DNA of 21,182 bases. Origin: a virus. The notes below the pieces were generated by a model. That model was not told the DNA's origin. It searched no databases and saw only the letters and a list, made by a program, of their open reading frames with translations. This document shows positions 4,706-19,103 of the stretch, piece by piece (position 1 is the stretch's first letter; each line of letters starts with the position of its first letter). Location of the stretch: positions 7,638-28,819 of IMG/VR virus record IMGVR_UViG_3300039191_000483; one strand, given 5' to 3'. The translations under genes and the position numbers were made by a program.

Positions 4706-5202
4706 ACCAATAAACTTTCACCCATTTTTTTATAGTTATCAAGGTCGAAATCTATCTTACCAAACATTGCATCTTTAATCTTAGGTTTATATTGCTCTTG
4801 TATAATTGAGTTTTCCAAACCTTGGGAGTAAGGTGCTTCTTCTCCGTTAACAATATAAAACATTAGACATGCATAACGGTCAGCTATTATTTCCTCTTGA
4901 ATAATATGATTAACAAATTCTTTAAAGTCAGAACTGGATAATTTATTAATATGAAAATCGGAACCGATTTTATTAATTCTCTTATAATGTGCCAATTCAT
5001 GTAAGGCAACATAATAAAAGAATTCAACTCCGTTTCTAAAACAGTTCGTATTAATATAGATTTTCTCATGCGTTGTAAATCCACCAACACCTAAAACCAT
5101 AGGAGCTATTAATACATCAACACCTTCATATAAATCTAGCAAGAAATCAATGTTTAAACCATTATCTCCATGCGTATCGAAAAATTCTTTTAATGTTATC
5201 AT
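4702..5202 (-). CDS. HExxH zinc metallopeptidase-like protein (ImmA/IrrE-like)
   Basis: Residues 68-72 form the zinc-binding motif HELAH, and EEIIADRYA at 103-111 supplies the expected third ligand in an E-x-x-AD helix. This arrangement is seen in ImmA/IrrE (M78) and other small gluzincin-like peptidases. At 166 aa it is about the size of a lone peptidase domain, with no helix-turn-helix or membrane segment. I chose the ATG at 5202-5200 (MITLKEFFD): the ATG at 5217 lies upstream of, and overlaps, the promoter -7 element at 5207-5214. The gene is the first of its operon, and its promoter is 4 nt upstream of this start. ImmA-type enzymes cleave repressors. Here the target is unknown, and a role in host or phage regulation is only inferred. 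Confidence 0.8.
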   Translation of the reverse strand: MITLKEFFDTHGDNGLNIDFLLDLYEGVDVLIAPMVLGVGGFTTHEKIYINTNCFRNGVEFFYYVALHELAHYKRINKIGSDFHINKLSSSDFKEFVNHIIQEEIIADRYACLMFYIVNGEEAPYSQGLENSIIQEQYKPKIKDAMFGKIDFDLDNYKKMGESLLV

Positions 5203-5206
5203 ACCA

Positions 5207-5237
5207 CAAATATACAAATTAATTAACTACTATGCAA
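5207..5237 (-). promoter_or_regulatory. Bacteroidota-type promoter for the metallopeptidase operon
   Basis: On the minus strand TTG (5237-5235) is followed by 20 nt and TATATTTG (5214-5207), which matches TTTG-N~20-TAnnTTTG. Only 4 nt separate it from the ATG at 5202. It lies directly downstream of an intrinsic terminator, as expected for a new transcription unit. Confidence 0.8.
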
Positions 5238-5264
5238 GAAAAAACCCTCAAAATTTGAGGGTTT
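5236..5264 (-). terminator. intrinsic terminator after repeat-protein paralogue 2
   Basis: A perfect 11-bp inverted repeat (aaaccctcaaa at 5242-5252 and tttgagggttt at 5254-5264) is followed, on the minus strand, by a T-rich tail (TTTTTTCTT). It overlaps the stop codon of the gene ending at 5263. This is the clearest rho-independent terminator in the window. Confidence 0.88.
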
Positions 5265-5571
5265 ATTTGATTTCAACTCTAATGCGTAAGCCATTCTGAT
5301 ACCAATACTTACTTCCATCAGCATATATAACCGCTGGCTTATCTCCATCTCGGTGTAGTAAAGCATTCTGATACCAAGACTTACCCCCATTAGGGTATAT
5401 CAGAGCTGGTTTATCATCATCTCTGTGTAATTGACCATGCTTATACCAAGACTTCCATTGAAGTATATCAATAATTGGTTCATCTAATTCATGATTATGG
5501 TACTCACCATTGATATCAAAATAGTCAGATTGACCATCGGCATAAATCATTTGTATTGGTTTATCAACCAT
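5263..5571 (-). CDS. WYxxGxLHRDGDKPA repeat protein, paralogue 2 (short)
   Basis: This 102-aa paralogue has the same leader as the other two copies (MIYADGQSDYFDINGEYHNH), two full 24-residue repeats (SWYKHGQLHRDDDKPAL and SWYQNALLHRDGDKPAV) and a partial third (WYQNGLRIRVEIK). The end of the third repeat is altered, as if truncated or recombined. I start it at the ATG at 5571-5569 (MVDKPIQM), which aligns with the other copies. This start overlaps the upstream zinc-motif gene by 8 nt. The stop lies inside the terminator hairpin, so this is the last gene of a long operon. Function unknown; see the paralogue at 511-1116. Confidence 0.82.
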   Translation of the reverse strand: MVDKPIQMIYADGQSDYFDINGEYHNHELDEPIIDILQWKSWYKHGQLHRDDDKPALIYPNGGKSWYQNALLHRDGDKPAVIYADGSKYWYQNGLRIRVEIK

Positions 5572-5806
5572 TTCTAGATTTAATACGATTAACAACCTCC
5601 ATTATAATATCATAACTAGCTGGGTCATCCTCTTTAATTTGATTTAATTCAAGAGACGATAATGGTTTTAGATTCAGTTCTTCGTCAAACTTATTGATAG
5701 CAGCACATTCGAAACATATTGAAATATCGTTAGGTTTAGGTGCATCATCGTGGTCAACACCAGTGGCACCATTTACTTCTGATTTACATTCTGGACAAAT
5801 TCTCAT
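5564..5806 (-). CDS. small zinc-binding protein (CxxC...CxxC)
   Basis: This 80-aa protein has two cysteine pairs, CPEC near residue 4 and CFEC near residue 31, which would bind one zinc ion as a zinc ribbon. A helical C-terminal half (LSSLELNQIKEDDPASYD) follows. Small proteins with this layout (CP.C..., a P..ND/GDI..C..C motif, then a helical tail) are common in phages and have no assigned role. The start lies 3 nt after the stop of a 31-residue membrane peptide. The end overlaps the next gene by 8 nt. Confidence 0.8.
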   Translation of the reverse strand: MRICPECKSEVNGATGVDHDDAPKPNDISICFECAAINKFDEELNLKPLSSLELNQIKEDDPASYDIIMEVVNRIKSRNG

Positions 5807-5809
5807 AAT

Positions 5810-5905
5810 TTAACTTTTTAATGCTAATGCAATAGTAACACCAATCAATAACCATAAAGGAAATAACATTATGATAGTTGTTAATATTTCATCTAATTTT
5901 TTCAT
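5810..5905 (-). CDS. 31-residue single-pass membrane peptide
   Basis: From the ATG at 5905-5903, a 31-codon ORF encodes a charged start (MKKLDEIL), one hydrophobic segment (TTIIMLFPLWLLIGVTIAL) and a short ALKS tail, ending at TAA 5812-5810. It fits exactly between two genes: 5 nt after the upstream TGA and 3 nt before the next ATG. That spacing argues it is real rather than a gap. Short membrane peptides of this kind in phages can act on the host envelope, on lysis timing or as inhibitors; nothing here shows which. Confidence 0.72.
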   Translation of the reverse strand: MKKLDEILTTIIMLFPLWLLIGVTIALALKS

Positions 5906-5910
5906 AATAA

Positions 5911-6255
5911 TCAGTCTTCAACAATTGTAACTTCTAGTTTTTCATCATCAAATTCATATGCTGATACAAAATTTAATTCAATGCCAAGACTACCATCTAA
6001 TCTAACAAAACCTTCATTTTGTTCAAACTCCCTTTTAATACCATATAAGTTATAATTGTATGTACTAGCTACTTTAATAACTTCCATCGCATATTTCTTC
6101 ATAACTTCATCTATTGGGTCCGCTTCTTTATCGTAATCCCATAGGAAGAAATCAATATTTTCTTGTGCAATTTCTTTTGTGAATTTATTAGTATCGACCT
6201 TAAAACAAGCTTGAGCTTCATTTAAATCGTAATCAAATGTATAGTGTTTAATCAT
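5911..6255 (-). CDS. small acidic protein, DUF2528-like
   Basis: This 114-aa protein starts MIKHYTFDYDLNEAQACFKVD and ends in an acidic strand (FDDEKLEVTIVED). The pattern of a beta N-terminus, a helical middle (EVMKKYAMEVIKVAS) and a YGIKREFEQNEGFVRLDGSLGIEL stretch is reminiscent of DUF2528 proteins found in phages and plasmids. I give that family name from memory of the pattern, not from a search. No catalytic motif is visible. The gene is mid-operon between an unknown gene and the 31-residue membrane peptide. Confidence 0.75.
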   Translation of the reverse strand: MIKHYTFDYDLNEAQACFKVDTNKFTKEIAQENIDFFLWDYDKEADPIDEVMKKYAMEVIKVASTYNYNLYGIKREFEQNEGFVRLDGSLGIELNFVSAYEFDDEKLEVTIVED

Positions 6256-6275
6256 ATCTAAAAATTTTATTGATA

Positions 6276-6575
6276 TTAGTTTTTATATTTGAAATTTTTC
6301 AAAAAGAAAAGCTCACTAACTACATTGAAATAAATCTCACCATTTGGTTCAGTATATTTTAACAGATAACAATCTTCCTTATTTCGAATGAAAAGTTTTT
6401 CACCACTTTGACCTATCACATAATAAGTTGGTTCTTCTGGCTCTTCATTAAATCTATCATGGAAATTACCAGTAGGTTTCCATCCTTTTGATAGACTTAC
6501 ACCATCGATATCTTGAATATTATCACCATCGATTTGGATTGCTTCTACTTTTACAAGTGATATACATTCTTTCAT
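6276..6575 (-). CDS. small phage protein of the 'VEAIQ...E.F' type
   Basis: This 99-aa protein starts at the ATG at 6575-6573 (MKECISLVKVEAIQIDG), one base after the upstream TAA (TAA-T-ATG). That junction recurs in this genome, so I prefer it to an ATG at 6623 that overlaps the previous gene. Its opening (VEAIQIDGDNIQDI) and closing (GEIYFNVVSELFFLKNF) segments resemble the widespread small phage proteins that begin 'V.A.Q..G.N...I' and end '.GE.Y.V..E.F...F'. The role of that group is unknown. Confidence 0.75.
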   Translation of the reverse strand: MKECISLVKVEAIQIDGDNIQDIDGVSLSKGWKPTGNFHDRFNEEPEEPTYYVIGQSGEKLFIRNKEDCYLLKYTEPNGEIYFNVVSELFFLKNFKYKN

Positions 6576-6576
6576 A

Positions 6577-6699
6577 TTATTTAACTCTTTTAATGAATCT
6601 AAAATTACCTTCACTAATCTCATACACTCCTATGACTTTTAAGTCATAGTAAGTGCATAAGATACCGTCAGGTGATATATAAATAAATTCTGTAGACAT
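6577..6699 (-). CDS. 40-residue hypothetical protein
   Basis: The ORF runs from the ATG at 6699-6697 (MSTEFIYISPDGILCTYYD) to TAA at 6579-6577. A longer version from 6834 would overlap the HAD gene out of frame by over 130 nt and is rejected. The start lies one base after the HAD stop (TAA-T-ATG), and the stop lies one base before the next ATG. The tight packing on both sides supports a real gene. It looks like a small beta-rich protein with a basic C-terminus (FRFIKRVK). Function unknown. Confidence 0.65.
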   Translation of the reverse strand: MSTEFIYISPDGILCTYYDLKVIGVYEISEGNFRFIKRVK

Positions 6700-6700
6700 A

Positions 6701-7237
6701 TTAAGGTGTTTCACCATGATGTTCACCAAGTACGTGGTTAATCTTGAACTCATCAAGTTTACCCTCAGTAACCATTCTATCACCCCATTCTTGGAATCTT
6801 GGAATATGTTCATCTCTGTCATCCCACATCTCAATACTCCTTACATCTGGATATTCTTTTAAAAGTTTCTCCATTCGGTACATCTTGTTCTCACCAGTCT
6901 CACCTTTATTGTTATGAAAGTACAAATCGAACTCAAGACCATGTGAGTCAAGAATCTTTTTAACAGCTTCTTCCAAAGGCTTTTTAGCTCTCCTTCCAGT
7001 AAGCATAATGTTAAGTACACCTTCGACATTTCTATACTTTTCATAATCCTTTATAACACTTGGAAGTGTTGGATTTTCAAATATATCCATGTCAAGAGAC
7101 TCAACTTTACTCCACCATCCGATGTGTGGCCATTCTTTTCCAGTCTTCTCCTTGAAGATTGGCTTCCCTTCTTCTGGTAAAGTAGTATCTACTAGCGTAC
7201 CATCAAAATCCCATATTTTAATCTTTGTGTATTTCAT
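6701..7237 (-). CDS. HAD-superfamily phosphatase, 'Swiss Army Knife RNA repair' HAD type
   Basis: The catalytic motif WDFDGTLVDT (Asp10 nucleophile, Asp12 acid/base) lies at the N-terminus. It is followed by a WW motif (GWWSKVESLD), motif II NIMLTGRR, GLEFDLYFHN, and the motif IV-like MWDDRDEHIPRFQEWG. This set, with WW, LTGR, GL.FD and .DDR.EHI..F, matches the HAD domain of proteins named 'Swiss Army Knife RNA repair-like', predicted to remove terminal phosphates from RNA ends. The 178-aa protein starts at ATG 7237-7235 (MKYTKIKIWDF), 4 nt after the upstream TAA; an ATG at 7252 would overlap the upstream gene. RNA-end repair would fit with Thg1 elsewhere in the window, but no RNA ligase is visible here. 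The family call is good; the substrate is inferred. Confidence 0.85.
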   Translation of the reverse strand: MKYTKIKIWDFDGTLVDTTLPEEGKPIFKEKTGKEWPHIGWWSKVESLDMDIFENPTLPSVIKDYEKYRNVEGVLNIMLTGRRAKKPLEEAVKKILDSHGLEFDLYFHNNKGETGENKMYRMEKLLKEYPDVRSIEMWDDRDEHIPRFQEWGDRMVTEGKLDEFKINHVLGEHHGETP

Positions 7238-7241
7238 AATC

Positions 7242-7646
7242 TTATTTTCCATACCAGCAATAAACTGGTCTAATTGCTACAATTGAATAACTATCACCAT
7301 CTACTTGACCCCAATCCTCAGTGTAAACTCTAAACCCTCTTTTATTATGACCATCATGTGACATATTAATATCCCATTTCCCAAGGGTGGGGAACTTCTC
7401 TCCTTCTTCTGACTTCAACCACTTCCATACAATGTCAGTAATTTCGTCTGAACTTAATGGAACTGGAAACTTGTTAGCACCAGATGAATCAGACCAATAA
7501 AGAATAAAACCTTTCTTCGGGTCAATCTTCCAAGCGGCAACTGTTTGCTCTTTATCATCATGATATTGACTCATAAGAGCAAGCTTTATAGTTGCAAGTA
7601 GTTGTCCTTTACTACTACCGTTTACATTGAAAACTATATTATCCAT
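7242..7646 (-). CDS. unknown 134-aa protein
   Basis: Function not recognised. The protein starts MDNIVFNVNGSSKGQLLATI with a helix likely at residues 12-30, then FILYWSDSSGANKFPVPL, an acidic helical stretch (SDEITDIVWKWLKSEEGEK) and a C-terminal beta-rich part (DGDSYSIVAIRPVYCWYGK). It has no membrane segment and no obvious metal site. The start overlaps the stop of the tRNA-binding protein gene (TAATG), so translation of the two is probably coupled. That pairing is the only hint to function. Confidence 0.72.
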   Translation of the reverse strand: MDNIVFNVNGSSKGQLLATIKLALMSQYHDDKEQTVAAWKIDPKKGFILYWSDSSGANKFPVPLSSDEITDIVWKWLKSEEGEKFPTLGKWDINMSHDGHNKRGFRVYTEDWGQVDGDSYSIVAIRPVYCWYGK

Positions 7647-7996
7647 TACATAAGTCTTCCACCGACTGAGAATTTCTCAAGTCCAAGTTCAACACTATCT
7701 CCAAATTGTGAAGGCATAATCATTACCTCACTAGTAACACCCATCATCTTCACTGGTTCTAAATTCATAACAAATGGAAATACCTCTCCACCGAATTCCT
7801 CACCATCAAACACTCCACCTAAATTGGTTACACATGTTTGAACAACCTCTGGGTTATCATCATCAAATGATATTGCAAGCTTTAATAACTTATCACTCCC
7901 TTCAATTTTTTCAACTTGAACAACTCGACCTAGTTGAATAACTAATTTGTCTGCCATATCGACAAACTCTTTAAATGTAATCTTTGCTTTTTCCAT
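7646..7996 (-). CDS. stand-alone tRNA-binding OB-fold protein (EMAPII / CsaA / Trbp111 type)
   Basis: This 116-aa protein matches the tRNA-binding domain otherwise found at the C-terminus of bacterial MetRS and as free CsaA/Trbp111 proteins of about 110 aa. The opening VIQLGRVVQVEKIEGSDKLL (residues 19-38) and the closing NLEPVKMMGVTSEVMI (78-93) carry the family hallmarks: RV..VE...., ADKL-like, and NL.P.K.MG..SE.MI. The fold binds structured RNA, usually the outer corner of tRNA, often as a dimer. No synthetase domain is attached. The gene sits just upstream of a coupled unknown gene and the SAK-type HAD phosphatase. In a phage it could protect, deliver or sequester tRNAs, which is inference. 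The family call rests on visible motifs. Confidence 0.85.
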   Translation of the reverse strand: MEKAKITFKEFVDMADKLVIQLGRVVQVEKIEGSDKLLKLAISFDDDNPEVVQTCVTNLGGVFDGEEFGGEVFPFVMNLEPVKMMGVTSEVMIMPSQFGDSVELGLEKFSVGGRLM

Positions 7997-8020
7997 TTCT
8001 ATTTTTCTTATGTTTTATAA

Positions 8021-8299
8021 TTACATGTAATTTGTTTTCTTAAATGTGATGAATCCAAATTTCTCATCAACACATTTTTCACAAACTTGTGCTTTCCAAG
8101 TTTCTGTATCTTTACCACTATCAAAGCCCCAATTAGCCGATAACTCCATGTATTCAAATTTATAATGCATTTCACCATGGTCCTCACGTTTTTCATTATC
8201 AATGACAAAACTATCAATTTTACAACTTTCTCCACAAGAATCACAAATTACGTCAGTAACAACGTCAACTTTCCTATTTTGTTTCTCTTTCTTTTCCAT
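8021..8299 (-). CDS. zinc-motif protein of the 'LSANWGYxSxxD' type
   Basis: This 92-aa protein has an N-terminal CDSCGESC (cysteines 19, 22, 26) and a C-terminal CEKC (73, 76) that flank a conserved-looking centre, FEYMELSANWGFDSGKD. The same layout, CD.CG...Y..L.A.WGY.S..D.E....LCE.C, is familiar from small bacterial and phage proteins of unknown role, probably binding one zinc ion. The gene begins 2 nt after the stop of the tail-anchored protein and precedes the tRNA-binding protein in the same operon. Confidence 0.8.
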   Translation of the reverse strand: MEKKEKQNRKVDVVTDVICDSCGESCKIDSFVIDNEKREDHGEMHYKFEYMELSANWGFDSGKDTETWKAQVCEKCVDEKFGFITFKKTNYM

Positions 8300-8301
8300 A
8301 T

Positions 8302-8682
8302 CTATAAAACTAATAAAATCACCGAAGTGATTGCAATTCCTAAAACTATTCCTATTGTGATATCTCTAAGGGATATCTTTGTTTTCTTTTTCTTCTGTTG
8401 ATTTGGGTTAACAATTAGTGAACCATAAATTCGTTTTCCAGCTGACCCGATTAGTTCCTTTTTAATTGGACCATGAGCATTAATAGCTTGTTTAAGTGCG
8501 CCATTAATTCGGTTCATTTCAACTTTCTTCTCTTTTTTTAGTTTCTGAATTGTGTTAACATTATCCTTTTGATAGTCATCAACAGCTTTGAGGATATTTT
8601 CAATATTCGTAGTATCACTTGATATCTCGCGAATAATTTTCTGTTCAAGTCTCCCCTTTCTCGTTTTAAATTTGTTAAACAT
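8302..8682 (-). CDS. tail-anchored, basic helical membrane protein
   Basis: The first ~100 residues of this 126-aa protein are highly charged and helical (KAVDDYQKDNVNTIQKLKKEKK), then HGPIKKELIGSAGKRIYGSL and a lysine cluster (NQQKKKKTK). The last 20 residues form one hydrophobic segment (DITIGIVLGIAITSVILLVL) ending at the C-terminus. This is a tail-anchor layout, with the body in the cytoplasm and the basic cluster at the membrane edge. It is the first gene of an operon with its own promoter (-7 element 16 nt upstream). Possible roles include anchoring phage complexes to the membrane. The function is not recognised. Confidence 0.75.
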   Translation of the reverse strand: MFNKFKTRKGRLEQKIIREISSDTTNIENILKAVDDYQKDNVNTIQKLKKEKKVEMNRINGALKQAINAHGPIKKELIGSAGKRIYGSLIVNPNQQKKKKTKISLRDITIGIVLGIAITSVILLVL

Positions 8683-8698
8683 TAATCATATCTATTTG

Positions 8699-8730
8699 CA
8701 AATATACTAATAATTTGGTTATTTACCAAA
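8699..8730 (-). promoter_or_regulatory. promoter with inverted repeat in the -33/spacer region
   Basis: On the minus strand TTTG (8730-8727), 20 nt and TATATTTG (8706-8699) precede the gene starting at 8682. The inverted repeat TTTGGT-N5-ACCAAA (8714-8730) covers the -33 element and spacer and is a possible operator. Further short inverted repeats lie at 8740-8754 and 8751-8764. The whole stretch 8683-8789 has no gene. Confidence 0.78.
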
Positions 8731-9272: not shown

Positions 9273-9518
9273 TTAAAAATCTAATCGATAGACGGAATTA
9301 TATGTTTTGAATATTGTGAAATCATCACCTTCCTCAAGAATTTCTTTAACTAAAGATGTCTTAAAACCATCAGTTCCGTTATAATAATAGAATATAAAAC
9401 ATTGGTTAATTGTAGGCTCATTAGTGAAATAACCGATTTTTATACCATTACCGTTTGAGTTTGGAATCTCAGCTTCATCATGGGTTTCCAATTTGCTTAA
9501 TGTTCCACTATGTTCCAC
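9273..9518 (-). CDS. unknown 81-aa protein, GTG start
   Basis: This ORF reads (GTG)EHSGTLSKLETHDEAEI... and ends VYRLDF-TAA. There is no ATG in the first third, so GTG at 9518-9516 is the likely start; it overlaps the radical-SAM gene by 11 nt. The overlap contains a 10-nt near-direct repeat (GTGGAACATA/GTGGAACATT on the minus strand), which may have created the overlap by duplication. The sequence looks beta-rich (GIKIGYFTNEPTINQCFIFYY). Function not recognised. Confidence 0.6.
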   Translation of the reverse strand: MEHSGTLSKLETHDEAEIPNSNGNGIKIGYFTNEPTINQCFIFYYYNGTDGFKTSLVKEILEEGDDFTIFKTYNSVYRLDF

Positions 9519-10374
9519 TTTCTTTTTCTAATTGAGTTAAGAACTGCCCACAACTTGCACCTATATCGTTACCTGGTGGTTCATAATATTCAGCTGTATG
9601 TCCAGCATTTTCTAAAAATTCAATAAATTGACTAATGTCTAACAATGAGGCTTTTTTAACATCTAAAGCTTCTCTCTCAGAATACATCATAAACTTAATT
9701 GTACAACCTTTCCTAACTAGTTTAGATAGTTTATCAATATGATGTAACATACTATCATTAACTCCACGCATAATAGTATAATGAACCTCAATTGGATTGC
9801 CAGTCATACTATGGTAAAAATTCAAGGCATCAATTGATGGTTGAATATCTAATCCTGATGGCATCCACTCCTTTCGTTGTACATCGTCAACAAAGTGAAG
9901 ACTTAAATGTAGTTTCAAATCTAATCCTAAATCCTTAACAAAGTTTGTTAATTTAAAAAATTCAGTCCATTTGGATTTAGGTAGTAATGTTGCTAGACCA
10001 AACCTAACATGTTCATATTGACCTTTTAATAAAATCATACTGTCAACTACAGCTCCAGTATTATCCAACGGTTCACCGCAACCCATATATGATATGAGAA
10101 GAGTTCGATTATTTAATCCAAGTTCTTCAACAATATAATCAACACCTTCAACAATATTTTCTGGAGATAAGTTATTTAACTTTATCTTCCCAACGTGGTC
10201 GGTCAAATGACAAAACTTACAACTCATATTACACATAGTTTGACATGGTACACAGATAATATCTTTACCACTACCATTATCAACATATGAGAATTCAATG
10301 ATTTGTTTATTTAATTCGAAGATATACTTTATCGTCTTATCAATCTCTGATTTTATAATTTGTTTTAATTCCAT
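9508..10374 (-). CDS. rlmN: short RlmN/Cfr-family radical-SAM RNA methyltransferase
   Basis: The N-terminal cluster ICVPCQTMCNMSCKFC contains the three iron-sulfur cysteines (48, 52, 55) of CxxxCxxC, plus Cys41 exactly seven residues before, equivalent to E. coli RlmN Cys118. The C-terminus has DIGASCGQF (Cys275), equivalent to Cys355, the residue that carries the methyl group. MGCGEPLDN, SLHFVDDVQRKEWMPS and the IMRGVNDS segment match RlmN landmarks. The protein therefore keeps the full machinery for C2 (or C8) adenine methylation. At 288 aa it is about 100 residues shorter than RlmN, because the N-terminal accessory RNA-binding region is almost absent. The gene follows IF-3 by 2 nt. The RNA target is unknown; host rRNA, tRNA or phage RNA are all open. 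Confidence 0.9.
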   Translation of the reverse strand: MELKQIIKSEIDKTIKYIFELNKQIIEFSYVDNGSGKDIICVPCQTMCNMSCKFCHLTDHVGKIKLNNLSPENIVEGVDYIVEELGLNNRTLLISYMGCGEPLDNTGAVVDSMILLKGQYEHVRFGLATLLPKSKWTEFFKLTNFVKDLGLDLKLHLSLHFVDDVQRKEWMPSGLDIQPSIDALNFYHSMTGNPIEVHYTIMRGVNDSMLHHIDKLSKLVRKGCTIKFMMYSEREALDVKKASLLDISQFIEFLENAGHTAEYYEPPGNDIGASCGQFLTQLEKESGT

Positions 10375-10376: not shown

Positions 10377-10934
10377 TTATTTTTTTTCTTCTTTTTTGGG
10401 TTTAAAGAATATATTCATTTTTCTACCATCCATTTTTGGCATCTTTTCAACTGTAGCGTAATCTTCTAATGCAACGGCCAATTCAAGAAGTAACTTTTCA
10501 CCTTGTTCTCTAAATCTATTCTCACGACCTTTGAAGAATACGAAAGCTTTAACCTTATGACCTTTCTTTAAAAAATTAATAATGTGATTTGTTTTAAATT
10601 TCAAATCATTCTCATCAGTAGTAGGTCTAAATCGCATCTCTTTCATCGGCTTAGACTTCTGAGCTGGTTTCTTCTTATTTTGTTCGTAAAGATATTTAGA
10701 ATAGTCCATCAACTTAACAACTGGTGGTGCAGCCTTAGCACCAACAAGTACTAAATCTTTACCTTCATTCTCAGCAACTTTTAGTGCTTCGTTAATTCCC
10801 ATGATTTCTGGTTCACCATTTTCAGAAACAAGTTTAACATCACTACCGTTAATTTCCCTGATGATTTCTCGGTTAATTCTGTGAGGATTTTTCTTAATTT
10901 CTCTTTTTTGATTTCTTCTGTGACGTTTAGCCAT
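10377..10934 (-). CDS. infC: translation initiation factor IF-3
   Basis: This is a full two-domain IF-3 (185 aa). The N-domain runs from about residue 18 (RINREIIREINGSDVKLVSENG) through APPVVKLMDYSKYLYEQ, with a basic linker after it. The C-domain carries MKEMRFRPTTDENDLKFK, FLKKGHKVKAFVFFKGRE and a KPKKEEKK tail. IF-3 binds the 30S subunit, prevents early 70S assembly and checks start codon and initiator tRNA. Its start overlaps the Nudix gene by 8 nt (ATGGCTAA). It begins with ATG, not the rare AUU by which cellular infC is typically autoregulated, so that control is likely lost. IF-3 is rare in phages. It may bias host ribosomes toward phage mRNAs, which is inference. Confidence 0.95.
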   Translation of the reverse strand: MAKRHRRNQKREIKKNPHRINREIIREINGSDVKLVSENGEPEIMGINEALKVAENEGKDLVLVGAKAAPPVVKLMDYSKYLYEQNKKKPAQKSKPMKEMRFRPTTDENDLKFKTNHIINFLKKGHKVKAFVFFKGRENRFREQGEKLLLELAVALEDYATVEKMPKMDGRKMNIFFKPKKEEKK

Positions 10935-11388
10935 TTTTTTCTTTTATATGTTTTTTTATTTGTTTCAATACTTCAATTTGTGTATCATGAAGTATCTCTT
11001 TAGCTTCTTTTAATGTAACCCATCTCCAACCATCCATTTCTGGCTTACCACCATTCCATTTACGACCAGCTGGTACTGTAGAATTACATCTAAATAGAAA
11101 ATCATCAGAGTTGACTTCTGGATTTTCATCTTCAAATACGACGAATGGATTTAATCGTTTACGTTTATTTTTATAACCGATAGAATCAAAATCATAATAT
11201 TTGGTAACTTTAGATAAGTTAACATTAGTCTCTTCCCATGTTTCTCTTTTTGCTGCAATCCAAGGTGTTTCACCTTCATCAAGTTTACCTTTTGGAATAC
11301 TCCAAAAATCAAAATCATGACCAGTTGGATGTGCTACCAACAACTTACCATTTTTATTAATAAAGAAAATACCAGCTGTTTCAGTCAT
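10927..11388 (-). CDS. Nudix hydrolase
   Basis: The Nudix box GKLDEGETPWIAAKRETWEE lies at residues 34-53 and has the REUXEE core, which binds magnesium and hydrolyses nucleoside diphosphates linked to another group. The protein (153 aa) opens with a strand set (TETAGIFFINKNGKLLVAH) and FWSIPKGKLDEGE, typical of MutT/Ap4A-type members. The substrate cannot be read from sequence. Possibilities include NTP sanitising, dinucleoside polyphosphates, NAD-type cofactors or RNA caps. The start overlaps the upstream gene stop (TAATG), and the end overlaps IF-3. Confidence 0.92.
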   Translation of the reverse strand: MTETAGIFFINKNGKLLVAHPTGHDFDFWSIPKGKLDEGETPWIAAKRETWEETNVNLSKVTKYYDFDSIGYKNKRKRLNPFVVFEDENPEVNSDDFLFRCNSTVPAGRKWNGGKPEMDGWRWVTLKEAKEILHDTQIEVLKQIKKHIKEKNG

Positions 11389-11849
11389 TATGACATTGGA
11401 TTAAGTTTAACCTCAAATACAGTTAATGAATCCTCAGTTTTACCATAATGTAACTTCTCTAAGGCTTTAATTTCATTCTTAGCATAGAAGTATGAAGTAT
11501 GTCTTTTATTATCTCTATCGGACCAAACAATAGTATAACTATTACCAACATTAACATTTGGTGAACCATCCTTTTCATTCACATCACCTTTTAAAACAGA
11601 TTGGAGTTGTCTTATATTTTCTAAAACACTACCCCAAGCTTGAATTTCAGTATTATGAGTTTGCTCACACAATAAAAAGAAATTATCATGTTTAGGATTA
11701 TAGGTGATTACTTTAATTTTTACACCATCTTTTTGAAATTTTGATTTTTCAAAATGAACAGTAACACCATTATCAGAATTTAACATATTCTGAATATCTG
11801 ATTGAATCTTAATGATTCTCTTATCTATAAAAACTTTTGGATTTCCCAT
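11388..11849 (-). CDS. unknown 153-aa protein, first gene of the IF-3 operon
   Basis: Not recognised. The protein starts MGNPKVFIDKRIIKIQSDIQ, with alternating strands and helices (GVKIKVITYNPKHDNFFLLCE, then AWGSVLENIRQLQ) and a lysine-rich region. It has no membrane segment and no clear metal site. The ATG at 11849 lies only 4 nt after a strong promoter -7 element, so the mRNA is probably leaderless. The stop overlaps the Nudix start (TAATG). Confidence 0.75.
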   Translation of the reverse strand: MGNPKVFIDKRIIKIQSDIQNMLNSDNGVTVHFEKSKFQKDGVKIKVITYNPKHDNFFLLCEQTHNTEIQAWGSVLENIRQLQSVLKGDVNEKDGSPNVNVGNSYTIVWSDRDNKRHTSYFYAKNEIKALEKLHYGKTEDSLTVFEVKLNPMS

Positions 11850-11853: not shown

Positions 11854-11886
11854 CAAATATAAGTAAAATATTTTAATTCTCCAAAA
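11854..11886 (-). promoter_or_regulatory. promoter of the IF-3 / RlmN-like operon
   Basis: On the minus strand TTTTG (11886-11882), 20 nt and TATATTTG (11861-11854) precede an ATG at 11849 by only 4 nt. It lies within the end of the upstream gene. Confidence 0.8.
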
Positions 11887-12247
11887 TTGGTTGAAGAAAA
11901 TTAATTGCTTTACCATTATTAATCTTTTCTTGATAGATATGAGAAGCCCGTAAATCTGGGTCCATACCAAATGCCTTCATAATGATTTCTGCATCTGTGA
12001 TTGATGGTAAATCTTCATTCTTTGTGATTGAGATGTGTCTACACTTAAAACCCATTTGTTCCTCAATTGAGTAGACCACCCTATATCCACCTTCAAAGAA
12101 ACAATTATGTTTCTCGTCAAGTCCTGGTGCCTTGTCTGGATTTTCACTACGATTAATTAAATCTTCAAGACTAAATTCATTTTCCTCAGCAAACTTAATT
12201 ACTTCCTTGATTTTAGATTCATCTTTATCATTAATTTTTAACATCAT
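11873..12247 (-). CDS. unknown 124-aa protein
   Basis: The protein starts MMLKINDKDESKIKEV (either methionine could be the start) and contains LEDLINRSENPDKAPGL, then GYRVVYSIEEQMGFKCRHISIT, and a helical C-terminus (HIYQEKINNGKAINFLQ). The pattern is familiar from phage hypothetical proteins but I cannot name a family. It lies 3' of the AAA+ ATPase gene, with a long hairpin between them. No promoter-like motif precedes it, so it is probably co-transcribed with the ATPase. Confidence 0.72.
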   Translation of the reverse strand: MMLKINDKDESKIKEVIKFAEENEFSLEDLINRSENPDKAPGLDEKHNCFFEGGYRVVYSIEEQMGFKCRHISITKNEDLPSITDAEIIMKAFGMDPDLRASHIYQEKINNGKAINFLQPILEN

Positions 12248-12302: not shown

Positions 12303-13586
12303 TTAACCCTTAGTGGGATTTTCATCATCCTTAGTGGGATTTTCATCATCCTTAAATGAGATTGGCATATCTCCACGTCCCCCAGTAACTTCCATTTTAA
12401 CCTCTACTTCATCAACTTCCCCAGACTTTTTAGAATGTGATTTCTTACCACTCTTTGGGTCTTTGCCCATTAATTTATCAGCTCTTTCAGTCGATTTAGT
12501 ACTATTAATGTTTTCACCATAGCCATATTCACCGTCACCAACATATGCATAATTCATATGGGTACCATAAGATTTCATAACTTTAAGTACTATAGTTTCA
12601 GTAACTACTTCCTCATCATTATCATTATATTCAATTAAATCCACTTCTATAACATCTGGCCCATGAACTTTACTAACTCTACCGATTTCCTTACCATTAA
12701 TATCAAAACAATAGCCCTCATAATCTTCATTATACTTAGGTCTTGGGTAAAGATTTGCATTCTCAATCAGAAGTGTTTCATTCTGATTAGTGTCAAGTTC
12801 GTAAACCTTAAATTTATTTTCAATCTTACTAACATTAAAAATATCTGCAAATTCAAACGGAGATTCGTTATGTATATTAACCTCATTTAATACTTCCTTA
12901 ACAATATCAACCGTAATAAGTGATAGTGTAGTCATAAAGTTAATACAATCATCTCTCAAATCCTTATTTTCTAGGATATCATCAACAATTTCTTCAACAA
13001 CTGATGGTGATAAGTCTTTAAATTCTTTCAAATAACGAAGTCTTGAAGGTCTTTGTTTAAGATTATCTTCAATATACAACCTATTTGTTGTCATCAAGAA
13101 TACTCTTCTGAATTCAGAGTTCATTGCACCATCCATGATTGTCAACATGGCGTTAGATTCACCAAAAATCTTTTCGTATTCATCGATGAAAATAGTAATG
13201 TTTTGTGGAATACTATTTAAAAAATATTGTACACCCGCACCGCCAAATGAACTAGTTACAACTATTGTTGGTTGTTCAAGTTTATTAGCTATTTGCTTAG
13301 AAGTTACTGTTTTACCAGTACCTTTAACACCATTTAATAACATACCTAAATTACCATCAGTATTCTCATAAGTTTTTAATAACCTACTGATTAGTTTATC
13401 TTCCATAGCGTAGATTTTGTAATCAAATACGTATGAATCTGCTACTTTCTCTAAATAAAATTTACCGATATTATCATTAAATTTTACAGTGTAAATAGCA
13501 TTTTCTAATTCACTATGTTCAATTGATGGATACTCTAAATAGAATTGGCCTCCATGTTGGGCCCAAATTTGATTCTTCTGACTCAT
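12303..13586 (-). CDS. AAA+ ATPase
   Basis: This is a 427-aa P-loop ATPase of the AAA+ class. Walker A GVKGTGKT is at residues 86-93, Walker B IFIDEYEK at 132-139, sensor-1 MTTN at 165-168 and an arginine pair RPSRLRY at 179-185. A helical lid region follows to about 250, and then a beta-rich C-terminal domain (EGYCFDINGKEIGRVSKVHG) rich in acidic residues. The N-terminal ~80 residues are not a known domain to me. The last residues form a heptad repeat, DDENPTKDDENPTKG. The operon context gives no client. It could act as a remodeller of a protein or nucleoprotein complex. The AAA+ call is solid; the role is not. Confidence 0.88.
   Translation of the reverse strand: MSQKNQIWAQHGGQFYLEYPSIEHSELENAIYTVKFNDNIGKFYLEKVADSYVFDYKIYAMEDKLISRLLKTYENTDGNLGMLLNGVKGTGKTVTSKQIANKLEQPTIVVTSSFGGAGVQYFLNSIPQNITIFIDEYEKIFGESNAMLTIMDGAMNSEFRRVFLMTTNRLYIEDNLKQRPSRLRYLKEFKDLSPSVVEEIVDDILENKDLRDDCINFMTTLSLITVDIVKEVLNEVNIHNESPFEFADIFNVSKIENKFKVYELDTNQNETLLIENANLYPRPKYNEDYEGYCFDINGKEIGRVSKVHGPDVIEVDLIEYNDNDEEVVTETIVLKVMKSYGTHMNYAYVGDGEYGYGENINSTKSTERADKLMGKDPKSGKKSHSKKSGEVDEVEVKMEVTGGRGDMPISFKDDENPTKDDENPTKG
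12309..12350 (-). repeat. 2 x 21-nt perfect tandem duplication at 3' end of AAA+ gene
   Basis: Two identical 21-nt units (plus strand cttagtgggattttcatcatc) encode DDENPTK twice at the C-terminus. This appears to be a recent duplication that keeps the frame. Confidence 0.9.
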
Positions 13587-13614: not shown

Positions 13615-13646
13615 CAAATATACTGGGTTTAATTTAATAACCCAAA
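13615..13646 (-). promoter_or_regulatory. promoter of the AAA+ operon, with inverted repeat
   Basis: On the minus strand TTTG (13646-13643), 20 nt and TATATTTG (13622-13615) precede the ATG at 13586 by 28 nt. An inverted repeat TGGGTT-N9-AACCCA (13624-13644) covers most of the spacer and overlaps the stop codon of the upstream HAD gene. It could be an operator or a weak terminator. Confidence 0.75.
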
Positions 13647-14320: not shown

Positions 14321-14321
14321 A

Positions 14322-15992
14322 TTATTCAAATGTTGTAAATTCTCCATCGATAAAGTTAATGTGTTGTGCTTTACCGTTCTTATGTATTATAACATGTGAT
14401 TGTAACCATGAACTTGGTCCATCATTATAACCAACTCTTAGGTGGGTTGATGTACCAACAGCTAATGCACCATCTTTTCTTTGTGGTGAGTGGTAGTGAC
14501 CTACGATTACTTTAGTGTTCAATTTACGGTACTGTTGGTGTGAACCTCTAGAACCGTTAGCACCGACATCTCCGTGCATACCTACTTCCCATCCAGCAAT
14601 CTTAAATGAATCACGTCTACCTAATGTATTCCATTTTGGATACTTCTCATTGATTAGCATTGGAATTACACCTCTTGGTTCATATGGGTTTGATTCAACC
14701 TCTTCCAACATCATACCCATGAACTTAGCGTATAACTTATAGTTCTTTGGTGTTGGTTGTTTCTTCCAATCTTGATTGATTACCCACCTATCAGCGAAGT
14801 CATCATGATTGGCTCTTGCAACAACAACACTCTCATACTTCTTGAACCCATCAAGAACTTCATACATTTCTTCAAGTTCCTTATTCAAATCATTCTTACC
14901 ATGGTATTCCATAGCATATTGAGTGATTGCGTTCTTCATTGTATGATGTGAAATTGAATAACCATCAAATATATCATGTAGTACTACATGCTTAGGTTTT
15001 ACTTTACCTAATAAATCATGTGTTGATTCTATAACTTTTGGGTCATGTTGACCACAGTGTAAATCACCTAATACACAAGCTTCAATCTCTTTAACCTTTT
15101 TAACTGAGTGTTTACCCTCTAACTTAACTGGGTCAGCGTGACAATGGTATTCAATCCAATTCACCTTATCCTCAATATTCTCAAATTGAATAGGGACTTC
15201 TTTACCTTCAAATGATACATCATAATATAGGTCACTAAAGTTACCATCTTCATCTGCGGTTACTTGTCTAATGAAGTACACTTCACCATCTTTAATCTCA
15301 ATGATACAAAAACCTAGTGTATGGTGAAATTCACCTTTCTTACCTTGTTTTGAATCAGTATAGTTTTTAACAGTACAAGCACCAGTAGTTAGCATTTGTT
15401 TTGGTTTCATTGATTCCAATACTGGAATCATTTCCATCTGCATTTTAGGGTGTCCAAAGATACAAGAGTTTTCACCAGAGATACTATACATAGAACTCAT
15501 TGGATTTGTTGCCGTTGGGACAATCTTGATATCTGACATTATTGAAACATACCTGTGTATGTCGTGTCTAGCTGCATCTAAATATGGAACTACATATCCA
15601 CTCCATACATCGTACTTCTTATCACTGAAAACAGACGTGGGATTCTTATAACGTCCAGCAATGACGTGTAGGTCTGCTTTAATCTCCTTTGCGTAAGCTT
15701 TTATATTACTGAAAAATTTCAAATGGACTGGAGTATCATTTTGTGCCCATGTTATTATGAAGCGTTTTGCTTTTTTATCGAATTTACGTTTCTTTGCTTT
15801 CTTTAGTTCTGGTGCTTCACTTTCTTCTCTTTTTGTAAAGCCTAATTCTTTAGCCCAATTTCTTACTGTTCGGTCACCTTTACCAATAAAGGCTGAAAGT
15901 AAACTCATCTTATCGTTCCAACTCAAGTTATCATCCCAATATATTTTCTTGAAATATTCCTTGTCTTTTTTGGTTAATTCTTTAAAATCCAT
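14322..15992 (-). CDS. metallophosphoesterase with N-terminal HTH-like region, possibly phage T5 A1-like
   Basis: The C-terminal half of this 556-aa protein has the five blocks of a calcineurin-type metallophosphoesterase: GDLHCGQHD (309-317), LHDIFDGY (338-345), ARANHDD (392-398), MHGD (472-475) and GHYHSPQ (498-504). These bind two metal ions, usually manganese. Residues 24-54 (SWNDKMSLLSAFIGKGDRTVRNW) look like a helix-turn-helix, followed by a lysine-rich linker (ELKKAKKRKFDKKAKR) and an unassigned domain (80-300). The size and layout are close to T5 A1, a phage nuclease tied to host DNA breakdown, but I recall that only by length and fold type. A role as a DNA or RNA nuclease is inferred. 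The gene lies between Thg1 and a HAD protein. Confidence 0.82.
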   Translation of the reverse strand: MDFKELTKKDKEYFKKIYWDDNLSWNDKMSLLSAFIGKGDRTVRNWAKELGFTKREESEAPELKKAKKRKFDKKAKRFIITWAQNDTPVHLKFFSNIKAYAKEIKADLHVIAGRYKNPTSVFSDKKYDVWSGYVVPYLDAARHDIHRYVSIMSDIKIVPTATNPMSSMYSISGENSCIFGHPKMQMEMIPVLESMKPKQMLTTGACTVKNYTDSKQGKKGEFHHTLGFCIIEIKDGEVYFIRQVTADEDGNFSDLYYDVSFEGKEVPIQFENIEDKVNWIEYHCHADPVKLEGKHSVKKVKEIEACVLGDLHCGQHDPKVIESTHDLLGKVKPKHVVLHDIFDGYSISHHTMKNAITQYAMEYHGKNDLNKELEEMYEVLDGFKKYESVVVARANHDDFADRWVINQDWKKQPTPKNYKLYAKFMGMMLEEVESNPYEPRGVIPMLINEKYPKWNTLGRRDSFKIAGWEVGMHGDVGANGSRGSHQQYRKLNTKVIVGHYHSPQRKDGALAVGTSTHLRVGYNDGPSSWLQSHVIIHKNGKAQHINFIDGEFTTFE

Positions 15993-16098
15993 TTAATTTA
16001 TTTTAACAGAAATGTTATACAGCGAATTTACCCAAAAAAAAAGCAGTTGACAAGTAAAAACTCGAAAAACTACCCTTTTTAGTTAAGAAATGTGGTTT
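15993..16098. other. non-coding gap between Thg1 and the metallophosphoesterase gene
   Basis: No ORF or promoter of the local type is seen. On the minus strand there is a short stem (AACTA-N7-TAGTT, near 16067-16084), two T5-C/G-T5-like stretches and a run of nine T (plus-strand A run near 16033-16041). It may act as a weak terminator or spacer. Confidence 0.45.
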
Positions 16099-16944
16099 TT
16101 AATCACAATTTGATGGAATTAAATCATATAGATAATCCCAATCTTGAGTGAATATTGGTGTATCATAATCTATAACCCATTTTTTACGTAAAACTGTTGA
16201 ACTAGGTTCTATTGTATTAGAACCTTCTAAATCACCTCTACTTGTCGGAAGCTCGACTTCAATCTTTTTAATAATGGCACCACGTTTATACTTAGTGATG
16301 TAATCATTCCAGTTAACACCCTTCTGAAACATCATCTCTTGTTTCTCATCGGATGATTTACCCATCAATTCTTTGTGTGAGTATAAAGCATCTGCTGCCA
16401 TACTAATTGAGTTCCTAGTAGCATCTTGCTGTCTCCAAACAATACAGTTTGCGACCTCTTTAATGTGTGGTATAACATAAACTCTGGAATCAAACTCAAC
16501 ATCAACTAATAAATCACCTTTTAAAAGGTCATTAACTAACACACCACTATCTTCGTATGTGTCGTATTTATGAGCTTTTAATAATGTTAACTTCTTATTA
16601 AATGAAGCGGTTGCCCTTGCTGCTGTAAGTGAGCAAATCTTTTGAACCTTACCTTTAAACATAGCTTCTTGGTTCTCACCAAAATCGGTGAAGACCAATG
16701 TAATCTCATCTGATTGGGTGTATGCGAATGCTGGGTTGAATTTCTTACACATTTCAACAGCTGCATCATTCATTGCCTCAGAAAAATCTGGGTCAAATGG
16801 TTTGTTCATCCCTTTGGTGAACTTTGAGAAACCTCTACCATCAACACGTACAATAGTATATGTCCTTGGTGGAATCATAGTACTATAACAAGCCTCATAG
16901 TGTTTCATACGTGAACTTAAATTATTTTTTCCATTTATACCCAT
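16099..16944 (-). CDS. thg1: Thg1-type 3'-5' RNA polymerase (tRNA-His guanylyltransferase-like)
   Basis: This 281-aa protein has the Thg1 catalytic signatures: PRTYTIVRVDGRGFSKFTK (Asp35, metal site A), FAYTQSDEITLVF (Asp79/Glu80), and IVWRQQDATRNSI (about 168-180), with RGAIIKK further on. Thg1 adds a guanosine to the 5' end of tRNA-His. Thg1-like proteins in bacteria and phages instead repair 5'-truncated tRNAs by 3'-to-5' polymerisation. The frameshifted stub upstream runs into this gene, so the true start may be the ATG at 16944 (its LSSRMKHYE aligns with the family) or the ATG at 16908. The gene lies downstream of prs and a HAD. A tRNA-repair role fits the context but is inferred. Confidence 0.93.
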   Translation of the reverse strand: MGINGKNNLSSRMKHYEACYSTMIPPRTYTIVRVDGRGFSKFTKGMNKPFDPDFSEAMNDAAVEMCKKFNPAFAYTQSDEITLVFTDFGENQEAMFKGKVQKICSLTAARATASFNKKLTLLKAHKYDTYEDSGVLVNDLLKGDLLVDVEFDSRVYVIPHIKEVANCIVWRQQDATRNSISMAADALYSHKELMGKSSDEKQEMMFQKGVNWNDYITKYKRGAIIKKIEVELPTSRGDLEGSNTIEPSSTVLRKKWVIDYDTPIFTQDWDYLYDLIPSNCD

Positions 16945-17085
16945 AAGCTGTTTTTATTTTATCATTAATACATTCATAAATTTTATTTCTCGCACCTTTT
17001 CTCAAATGCAACTCTTTTCAATATCTAAAGCACTATCAAAAGTATTTAATATTTCTCCAGTATCTTTATCAATTGTATGACTCAT
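16922..17085 (-). pseudogene. frameshifted NUMOD1-like stub
   Basis: From the ATG at 17085-17083 the frame reads MSHTIDKDTGEILNTFDSAL then stops at TGA. At a run of four A (17018-17015), a one-base shift opens a second frame (KELHLRKGARNKIYECIN, then KTAYGYKWKK) to TAA at 16924-16922. The joined 54-aa product looks like the small DNA-binding module NUMOD1 (tGE.i.tF.S...A, KtAyGYKWK) that usually follows homing-endonuclease domains. No nuclease domain is present. The ATG overlaps the stop of the upstream HAD gene (ATGA), and the end overlaps the annotated Thg1 start. A one-base deletion or an assembly error is likely; a programmed shift is possible. Confidence 0.6.
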
Positions 17086-17558
17086 AATTCAATACTTTTA
17101 CCAAATTGTTCTTGATAAAGCTCTCTAGCTTCATCCATCGTTTTAGGCTCTTGACTTATAATACGCATTGCTTTATCTAATATTATATAAGCACTTCTAA
17201 GTCCAGCTCTATCATCTAAAAAATGACTGTAAAATAACTTACCCTCACATTTACCATTCGCAAATACAATACCCTCATTGATTGTATCCCAAGGAATGTC
17301 ATTAGAATCTAAATATTCAATAATCTCACCATGTCGGTCATCATTAGAATGTGTATAAACTATAAATTTACAATATGGTTTACACTCTCTAAGTAAATTA
17401 ATTACCATCTTGAATTCATATCCTTTATCATGGTAATCATATACTGTATTATCATAGTCATAGGCGATAACCAATTGACCGTGTTTAATGTAATCTTTTA
17501 TTAATCTCTCGATTGCTCGATAATCTCTAAGAAATGGGTCTGTTATAATTTCTTCCAT
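17082..17558 (-). CDS. HAD-superfamily phosphatase
   Basis: This 158-aa protein has motif I IAYDYDNTVYDYHD (Asp34 nucleophile, Asp36), motif II IVYTHSNDDRHGEI, and an acidic motif FSHFLDDRAGL-like block (YSHFLDDRAGLRSAY) near the C-terminus. The order and spacing match small HAD phosphatases, perhaps for phosphorylated nucleotides or RNA ends. The start overlaps the prs stop (TAATG), and the stop overlaps the next ATG (ATGA). The tight coupling to prs hints at nucleotide or cofactor chemistry, but no substrate is shown. Confidence 0.82.
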   Translation of the reverse strand: MEEIITDPFLRDYRAIERLIKDYIKHGQLVIAYDYDNTVYDYHDKGYEFKMVINLLRECKPYCKFIVYTHSNDDRHGEIIEYLDSNDIPWDTINEGIVFANGKCEGKLFYSHFLDDRAGLRSAYIILDKAMRIISQEPKTMDEARELYQEQFGKSIEL

Positions 17559-18580
17559 TAATAATTGTTTTGTTTCAAAGCTTCAACGCTTACATTGTTA
17601 TTTATTGCTATAATCGCTTTAGCGATTTGTCTTGCTGTAGATATTTGTGTCACAATTCTACTACTATCTATTGTGAAAGACCAAATTTTGTGGCTACCTA
17701 TCTGCACTAATTTTTCTAATGGTAAAGAATTAGAACAGATGAAGTCTTCTAATTTTGAATTATTTATTCGTTCTAAAGCTGGTCCACTTAATACACCGTG
17801 GGTTACAATAGCTCTAACTGTCATAGCACCCTTTTCCAATAGCTCATCACATGCTTTAACTAGTGTTCCACCAGTATCACACATATCATCGATGATTATA
17901 ACGTTTTTATCTTTAACATCACCAATCAAAACCATTTCACCAACTTCATTTGCTTTCGGCCTTGTCTTATCAATCATAACTATTGGAAGGTCAATTGCCC
18001 AACGAGTCTTTAATTGGTCGCGGAAATGTTTAACACGTTTTGCTGCACCAGCATCTGGAGCACATAAAACCATTGAATCACCCATCTCAACATATAAGTC
18101 ATGTAAGCATCGGTCAAATAAATATTTGCCTTCCATGTGTGTTACTGGAATATTGAAAAACCCTTGGATTTGGTCAGCATGTAAATCAAATGTAACCACT
18201 TGTGTGGCACCACGATTTTCTAACATCTCAGCTAATACTTTGGCACCAATAGGACCTCTAACTTGGTCCTTTTTATCTTGTCTTGCATATGGAAAATAAG
18301 TTATTATTGGTATAATTTCTTTAGCTGCTGCACGCTTGGCTGCATCAATTGCAAAATTTAATTGTAATACTTTATCTGATGTGTTGGGGGTGGAAACAAG
18401 ATAAACTCGTTTACCCCTTACTGATGTTTCAAAATCGGCACATACTTCACCATCTGAAAATTTTCCAATGTTTATTCTTCCTGTATGTACCTCATGACCG
18501 ATTTCAATATTACATAACTCTTCTGAGATGTCATGTACTAAATCTTTTCGACCATCAACTGAAAATATAATAGACTGCAT
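17558..18580 (-). CDS. prs: ribose-phosphate pyrophosphokinase homologue (PRPP synthetase or ADPR-PP synthetase)
   Basis: This 340-aa protein has all Prs landmarks: KFSDGEV (40-46), YFPYARQDKK (95-104, catalytic flexible loop), FDLHADQIQGFF (131-142), APDAGAAKR (174-182), and the PRPP loop VIIIDDMCDTGGTL (227-240). Prs makes phosphoribosyl pyrophosphate from ribose 5-phosphate and ATP, for nucleotide and NAD synthesis. Homologues in some phages (Adps of the NARP1 route) instead phosphorylate ADP-ribose to rebuild NAD+ after host defence. The sequence does not tell the two apart, and no nicotinamide-joining partner is visible in the window. The gene sits downstream of a repeat protein and is coupled to a HAD phosphatase. 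Confidence 0.93.
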   Translation of the reverse strand: MQSIIFSVDGRKDLVHDISEELCNIEIGHEVHTGRINIGKFSDGEVCADFETSVRGKRVYLVSTPNTSDKVLQLNFAIDAAKRAAAKEIIPIITYFPYARQDKKDQVRGPIGAKVLAEMLENRGATQVVTFDLHADQIQGFFNIPVTHMEGKYLFDRCLHDLYVEMGDSMVLCAPDAGAAKRVKHFRDQLKTRWAIDLPIVMIDKTRPKANEVGEMVLIGDVKDKNVIIIDDMCDTGGTLVKACDELLEKGAMTVRAIVTHGVLSGPALERINNSKLEDFICSNSLPLEKLVQIGSHKIWSFTIDSSRIVTQISTARQIAKAIIAINNNVSVEALKQNNY

Positions 18581-18585
18581 AATTA

Positions 18586-19068
18586 TTATTTAATAAATTT
18601 ATCATTACGATACCAATACTTACTTCCATTAGCCGTTATAACAGCTGGTCCACCATCCCTGTGTGATTTACCATTCTGATACCACATTTTACTCCCAGTA
18701 GACAATATCATAGCTGGCTTATCTCCATCACGGTGTAGTAAACCATTCTGATACCAATGCATTTCTCCATTTGGATGAGTCACAGCTGGACCACATTCCA
18801 TAGTTCCATTGACATGTATAATAGCTGGCTTATCTCCTTCACGGTGTAGTAAGCCATTCTGATACCAAAAATATTCACCATCTGATGAAATAGCAGCTGG
18901 CTTATCTCCATCACGATGGCGTAAACCATGCTTATACCAAGACTTAGTACCATATTCGTCAATGATTGGATTGTCATCCATATCATGATTATGGTACTCA
19001 CCATTGATATCAAACCAATCACTATCACCATCAGCATAAGTCATTTGATATATTTTATCACCAATCAT
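18586..19068 (-). CDS. WYxxGxLHRDGDKPA repeat protein, paralogue 3
   Basis: This 160-aa paralogue has the same leader as the other two copies (MTYADGDSDWFDINGEYHNH), then repeats WYKHGLRHRDGDKPAAI and WYQNGLLHREGDKPAII. A unit lacking 11 residues follows (CGPAVTHPNGEMH, missing the WY..GxLHR part), then WYQNGLLHRDGDKPAMI, WYQNGKSHRDGGPAVI (one residue short) and a partial WYRNDKFIK. The 33-nt loss keeps the frame, so these genes appear to change by unit recombination. The start is 4 nt after a strong -7 element. It is the first gene of the operon with prs. Function unknown. Confidence 0.84.
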   Translation of the reverse strand: MIGDKIYQMTYADGDSDWFDINGEYHNHDMDDNPIIDEYGTKSWYKHGLRHRDGDKPAAISSDGEYFWYQNGLLHREGDKPAIIHVNGTMECGPAVTHPNGEMHWYQNGLLHRDGDKPAMILSTGSKMWYQNGKSHRDGGPAVITANGSKYWYRNDKFIK

Positions 19069-19072
19069 GTTG

Positions 19073-19103
19073 CAAATATAAGTATAATTTATCTAATAAG
19101 CAA
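19073..19103 (-). promoter_or_regulatory. promoter of the repeat-protein / prs operon
   Basis: On the minus strand TTG (19103-19101), 20 nt and TATATTTG (19080-19073) are followed after 4 nt by the ATG at 19068. The -33 region (TTTCTTGC) matches that of the promoter at 5207-5237. Confidence 0.8.

Follow-up and report, generated by a model that had tools for sequence, protein, structure and literature searches.

Promoters placed four nucleotides before start codons predict leaderless messages in a lineage of large phages

Promoters and genes in the window

The 21,182-nucleotide (nt) stretch of viral DNA analysed here, hereafter the window, spans positions 7638–28819 of a 28.8-kb virus record (IMGVR_UViG_3300039191_000483) and carries on its minus strand five promoters of the form TTG-N20-TATATTTG. 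A −7 box matching TAHHTTTG is present at all five sites, as is a −33 TTG at N20. At three of them the box is separated from an ATG by exactly 4 nt (TGGT, TAAT and CAAC), an arrangement from which a reading of the letters by themselves (the sequence-only reading) had predicted leaderless messenger RNAs (mRNAs). We confirmed the five promoters and the three 4-nt gaps; at the sites at 5207, 8699, 11854, 13615 and 19073, the distances from box to ATG are 4, 16, 4, 28 and 4 nt, respectively. The accompanying descriptions of the three gap-4 genes were upheld as well: a metallopeptidase with a HELAH motif, a gene of unassigned function leading the IF-3 operon, and a repeat protein. The features, all of them open reading frames (ORFs; lengths in amino acids, aa) or their control elements, are as follows.

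5207..5237, minus strand: promoter; TTG (−33), N20, TATATTTG (−7, 5207–5214), then TGGT and the ATG at 5202
4702..5202, minus strand: predicted leaderless gene, ORF of 166 aa, HExxH metallopeptidase-like (HELAH motif); predicted transcription start (+1) at the A of the ATG at 5202
11854..11884, minus strand: promoter; TTG-N20-TATATTTG, TAAT, ATG at 11849; the −33 end and the tail of the preceding ORF 11873–12247 overlap
11388..11849, minus strand: predicted leaderless gene, ORF of 153 aa, no function assigned; heads the NUDIX, IF-3 and radical SAM genes
19073..19103, minus strand: promoter; TTG-N20-TATATTTG, CAAC, ATG at 19068
18586..19068, minus strand: predicted leaderless gene, ORF of 160 aa, repeat protein; N terminus aligns with those of two paralogues in the window
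8699..8729, minus strand: promoter with leader; TTG-N20-TATATTTG, 16 nt to the ATG at 8682; predicted leader of about 12 nt
8302..8682, minus strand: leadered gene, ORF of 126 aa, no function assigned
13615..13645, minus strand: promoter with leader; TTG-N20-TATATTTG, 28 nt to the ATG at 13586; predicted leader of about 24 nt
12303..13586, minus strand: leadered gene, ORF of 427 aa, AAA ATPase
5242..5264, no strand assigned: hairpin resembling an intrinsic terminator, able to act in either direction; separates the 5207 promoter from the repeat gene upstream of it
10927..11388, minus strand: NUDIX gene, following 11388–11849
10377..10934, minus strand: IF-3 gene, encoding both domains
9508..10374, minus strand: radical SAM gene

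Because the window offers just three cases, and the number four was picked after seeing them, the 4-nt gaps might be a coincidence of an AT-rich genome. Dinucleotide shuffling of the window (500 rounds), however, produced exact minus-strand TTG-N20-TATATTTG sites 0.06 times on average, and the five seen were never reached; for TTG-N20-TATATTTG-N4-ATG, the mean was 0.002 per shuffle against three seen. The spacing is thus more regular than chance would give, as had been claimed, and these shuffles, together with replication at the same gap in ten other records (below), refute coincidence, the probability of which we put at practically nil.

Some further details concern single sites and proteins. 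The window holds nine copies of TATATTTG in all, and the remaining four are without a TTG at N20. Behind the 8699 box there is also an ATG at gap 9, but its frame comprises 4 codons. A fourth gap-4 site in the record, TTG-N20-TATCTTTG-TAAT-ATG, lies outside the window at record position 1605. The product of 11388–11849 has no Pfam match. The repeat protein is one of at least three paralogues in the window (514–1116, 5266–5571 and 18586–19068) that have WYQNGxLHRDGDKPAxI-type repeats and similar N termini; the one copy tested gave no Pfam match. A search of viral contigs with the protein encoded at 14322–15992 gave no relatives.

Spacing between promoter and start codon across the lineage

We counted promoters in 11 related phage records totalling about 2.2 Mb, which include the window's own record and its promoters, the ten others being independent. 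The relatives, phages with large genomes, are represented by IMG/VR contigs, of which the longest measure 200–600 kb, and by two genomes from uncultured phages (635 and 642 kb). A promoter was defined as a TTG, a spacer and a TAHHTTTG box, and boxes without the TTG served as controls. In the relatives the spacer is sharply 20 nt (in G010, 113 sites at 20 nt versus 14 at 19 and 5 at 21). An ATG stands at gap 4 after 94 of 833 promoters, versus 17 and 15 at gaps 3 and 5, whereas boxes without the TTG show no peak, having an ATG at gap 4 in 38 of 2337 cases (1.6%; Fisher P of about 3 × 10−28 against promoters). When the count was based on ORFs of at least 50 aa behind a 20-nt spacer (490 promoter-linked ORFs), gaps 3, 4 and 5 held 10, 80 and 9 genes. 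The peak at 4 nt across genomes, which had been set beforehand as the test of the prediction, is therefore there, and it is one nucleotide wide. A gene-anchored count that did not require the TTG gave 81 genes at gap 4, 14 at gap 3 and 17 at gap 5.

Beyond this peak, genes are scarce at gaps 7–13 (12 altogether at gaps 7–12) until the leadered class begins, spread broadly over about 14–35 nt. Strong promoters at called genes comprise 73 at gap 4 and 336 that are leadered, a gap-4 share of 73/409 or about 18%, which by record runs from about 5% (3 of 65, G007) to about 30% (21 of 69, G004) and is higher in some small fragments. The promoter form, the exact 4-nt spacing and the two separate gap classes are read directly from the sequence, as is the conservation among orthologues described below. 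We consider it highly probable that these are Bacteroidota sigma-A-type promoters set so that transcription would start on the A of the start codon, yielding leaderless messages throughout the lineage.

Gap-4 genes might instead be transcribed mainly from further upstream, as leadered or polycistronic messages, with the box acting as a secondary promoter or as a translation or protein-binding signal. The compactness of the genomes makes such read-through possible, since the median distance from the end of the upstream gene to the TTG is 13 nt in the gap-4 class and 18 nt in the leadered class. However, the gap-4 peak goes with a −33 TTG at N20 and is missing at boxes that lack it, promoter composition is otherwise equal in the two classes, and the terminator-like hairpin at 5242–5264 isolates the 5207 promoter from the upstream gene. 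We regard transcription from upstream as the main source of these messages as very unlikely.

A tie of the 4-nt gap to one variant of the −7 box was rejected, since TATATTTG (30 of 205), TACCTTTG (23 of 173) and TATCTTTG (14 of 157) all have gap-4 genes. Elsewhere the pattern was not found: among 63 other sites at viral loci selected through a gap-8 match, none had a gap-4 gene, and the first half of the crAss001 genome showed no gap-4 peak among 12 sites. These null results indicate a trait of a lineage or group of lineages rather than of every phage with such promoters.

Two side observations concern the spacing itself. An ATG stands at gap 2 after 24 of the 833 promoters (11 of them in G004), more often than at gaps 0, 1 and 3, and few of these open a long ORF. 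In LR745206 (W01), the 635-kb relative, the −33 spacer is bimodal at 19 and 20 nt and the gap-4 peak spreads over 4–5 nt; both differ from the strict 20 and 4 nt of most other records.

Predicted transcription starts, start codons and their conservation

In Flavobacterium johnsoniae, the box occupies −12 to −5, ending 4–5 nt before the start site (PMC6847099), and in F. psychrophilum it is located in the same way (PMC9723704). The phages' own leadered promoters carry a compatible signal: among 326 of them, position 5 after the box holds A in 60% and G in 13%, and position 4 holds T in 45% and G in 2%. A purine at position 5 following a T is the expected signature of a start site, and in the gap-4 class that position would coincide with the A of the ATG. 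Because these two independent lines, the published Flavobacterium spacing and the purine signal in leadered promoters, agree, we infer that transcription would start at position 5 after the box and thus on the AUG. With the peak also absent where the −33 TTG is missing, the leaderless interpretation of the gap-4 genes proposed in the sequence-only reading is supported.

According to this model, RNA polymerase (host core) carrying a Bacteroidota-type sigma-A factor of host or phage origin would begin at the A of the start codon, and ribosomes would translate the resulting leaderless mRNA from its 5′-terminal AUG, probably through direct binding of the 70S particle, a route described for leaderless mRNAs in other systems (PMC9031893). 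A second class of messages would arise from the same promoter with leaders of about 10–30 nt, A-rich around −10 to −13 and with an A at −3. The leadered genes are indeed rich in A from −13 to −10 and have an A at −3, and they show no Shine–Dalgarno-like G-rich stretch. Kozak-like signals have been described for Flavobacterium, and the pattern in the leadered phage genes is in keeping with them. Given the scarcity of gaps 7–13, leaders just a few nucleotides long may be ill suited to either mode of initiation.

Transcription might also start a few bases further downstream, so that the gap-4 ATG is lost or unused and ribosomes begin at an in-frame start further along a leadered mRNA; start sites do shift by 1–2 nt in some promoters. 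Such a shift gives no reason for a peak one nucleotide wide, however, and the N termini argue against it. Alignments of gap-4 genes with leadered orthologues mostly begin at matching first residues: the first residues correspond in 50 of 118, by far the commonest offset, and 75 of 118 begin within 10 aa of both starts. The second methionine of gap-4 genes stands at a median of residue 35, and 72 of 85 have no in-frame start upstream before a stop. Within the window, the alignment of the metallopeptidase (5202) with an orthologue likewise at gap 4 begins at residue 1. So do the alignments of the 18586–19068 repeat protein with its paralogues, whose ATGs lie at 1116 and 5571, in support of the start codon at 19068. 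By these orthologue and paralogue N termini, the gap-4 AUG appears to be the true start codon of both genes, and we judge a downstream start to be highly improbable.

The leaderless arrangement recurs among orthologues. Those of the metallopeptidase, about 28–38% identical, have gap 4 in G002/L013, L032, L038/L039 and G009, gap 3 in G010 and gaps of 20–21 in L019, L026 and L073; among the gap-4 members the four letters vary and the length is kept. The gap of 4 is steady in several families, among them RNase R (5 of 6, with one at 5), a CYTH-like protein (5 of 6) and two families of HAD-like phosphatases (12 of 17 and 9 of 10). Reciprocal best pairs below 80% identity comprised 116 gap-4/gap-4 pairs versus 63 expected, the maximum of 2000 within-record label shuffles being 107, an excess to be read as recurrence and retention rather than as an exact probability, because orthologue pairs are not phylogenetically independent.

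That dependence tells against the leaderless reading, and so do other points. The start sites of the gap-4 genes are predictions from sequence, and the assignment to Bacteroidota hosts draws wholly on promoter type and sigma type. The gene at 11388–11849 has no homologue among the loci compared, leaving its position as the support for its start codon. The record's fourth gap-4 gene, at position 1605, is leadered in three relatives (gaps 23–25), from which it follows that the gap-4 state is not fixed per gene.

A tie of gap 4 to one function was rejected, as no clear split emerged: the gap-4 class contains primase, tRNA nucleotidyltransferase, RNase R, HAD and polynucleotide-kinase-like RNA-repair enzymes, and peptidases, but RNA ligases and nucleotidyltransferases are found in the leadered class too.

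Sigma factors, IF-3 and relation to known systems

Sigma-70 family proteins are encoded in all 13 relatives searched, a set that did not include the window's 28.8-kb record. The 12 full-length phage sigma factors extracted are 37–47% identical to sigma-A of Flavobacterium and Bacteroidaceae, and one of their two paralogue groups has a short, MRQLKIT-like N terminus and no region 1.1. This similarity and the promoter type together point to Bacteroidota as the probable hosts of the lineage. As a refinement of the sequence-only reading, sigma-A paralogues encoded by the phages, and not the host factor alone, probably recognize the gap-4 promoters.

Five relatives (G003, G004, G007, G012 and G014) each encode two full-length Bacteroidota-type sigma-A paralogues, of about 280 and 300 aa, along with smaller sigma-70 proteins. 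The −7 box variants are also segregated along the genome (G009 at 1–15.5 kb; G010 at about 58–87 kb; loci L150 and L140–L142): TATATTTG and TATCTTTG promoters share one block and TACCTTTG promoters lie elsewhere, and in G010, 50 of 86 neighbours are alike versus 30.5 expected. Box segregation and the presence of two paralogues per genome suggest two promoter classes, perhaps early and later.

IF-3 is encoded in 10 of the 13 relatives. As a cause of the leaderless class it was rejected: LR745206, in which no IF-3 was found, still has the gap-4 peak, and IF-3 is thus not needed for the pattern, a second refinement of the earlier reading. At high levels, IF3 is reported to inhibit leaderless translation (PMC9031893), and phage IF-3 may modulate it here. 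It is possible, though we hold the idea only tentatively, that these huge phages keep two promoter-encoded translation classes, leaderless (0 nt) and leadered (about 10 nt or more), with little between them, and have retained certain genes in the leaderless class over long periods so that these are translated when canonical initiation is altered, such as by phage IF-3 or sigma factors at takeover.

The messages might alternatively be leaderless at the ordinary level of the host, carried over without special meaning. Hosts do have some such mRNAs: 5.5% are leaderless in F. psychrophilum (PMC9723704), 5′ untranslated regions (UTRs) shorter than 10 nt make up 3.7% in Bacteroides thetaiotaomicron (PMC7366714), and in F. 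johnsoniae, 13% of the genes for which a promoter is probable have leaders of at most 10 nt (PMC6847099). However, about 4–6% of mapped host mRNAs are leaderless, as against about 18% of strong phage promoters (up to about 30% in G004) at exactly 4 nt, and the phage orthologues retain the state. In eight Bacteroidota genomes, TTG-N20-TANNTTTG sites number 1427 versus 887 for a reversed control pattern, many sites being noise, and an ATG stands at gap 4 in 45 of the 1427. We consider a simple carry-over of the host level unlikely.

To our knowledge, Bacteroidota make no use of Shine–Dalgarno sequences, and how their ribosomes choose start codons is still being worked out. A lineage in which about one-sixth of strong promoters place the predicted transcription start on the AUG with single-base precision offers a large natural set for the study of leaderless initiation in this phylum. 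It also supplies a guide to the annotation of promoters and start codons in huge phages for which metagenomes are the sole source. Since the arrangement occurs together with phage sigma-A paralogues and, in most members, with IF-3, one can ask by experiment whether phages direct host translation towards or away from leaderless messages.

The phage promoters have in common with those of Bacteroidota sigma-A (sigma-ABfr; TTTG and TAnnTTTG) the −7 box, the −33 element and, as predicted, the distance from box to start, but the −33 TTG and 20-nt spacer are far stricter in the phages (87 sites versus 8 for the reversed control in G003, set against the 1427 and 887 of the eight Bacteroidota genomes). 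In leaderless mRNAs of Flavobacterium and Bacteroides, too, the AUG coincides with +1 or lies close to it, downstream of a TAnnTTTG box, as is predicted for the phage messages. Among phages, the lambda cI message has been named as a leaderless mRNA (PMC9031893). It too begins at the AUG, but it is the product of a single gene, whereas here dozens of genes across a lineage are predicted to do so. In mycobacteria, a sizeable share of genes start at a 5′ AUG; those leaderless transcriptomes belong to another phylum and promoter type, and to a cellular genome rather than a phage lineage. The giant Bacillus phage AR9 also has a large genome, yet its mapped 5′ UTRs of 26–491 nt (PMC5312081) represent the opposite strategy to the leaderless class. 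With the huge and jumbo phages of Bacteroidota (moraphages, and huge phages with IF3 and ribosomal proteins), the lineage shares very large genomes, translation genes, sigma factors and predicted Bacteroidota hosts; in the papers on those phages we found neither promoter-to-start spacing nor leaderless genes described. In the open-access literature, subscription papers and preprints being outside the scope, we found no account in which leaderless genes form a regular trait of phages of Bacteroidota or of huge phages. Leaderless mRNAs and this type of promoter are already known; their systematic use throughout a phage lineage, as predicted here, appears to be new.

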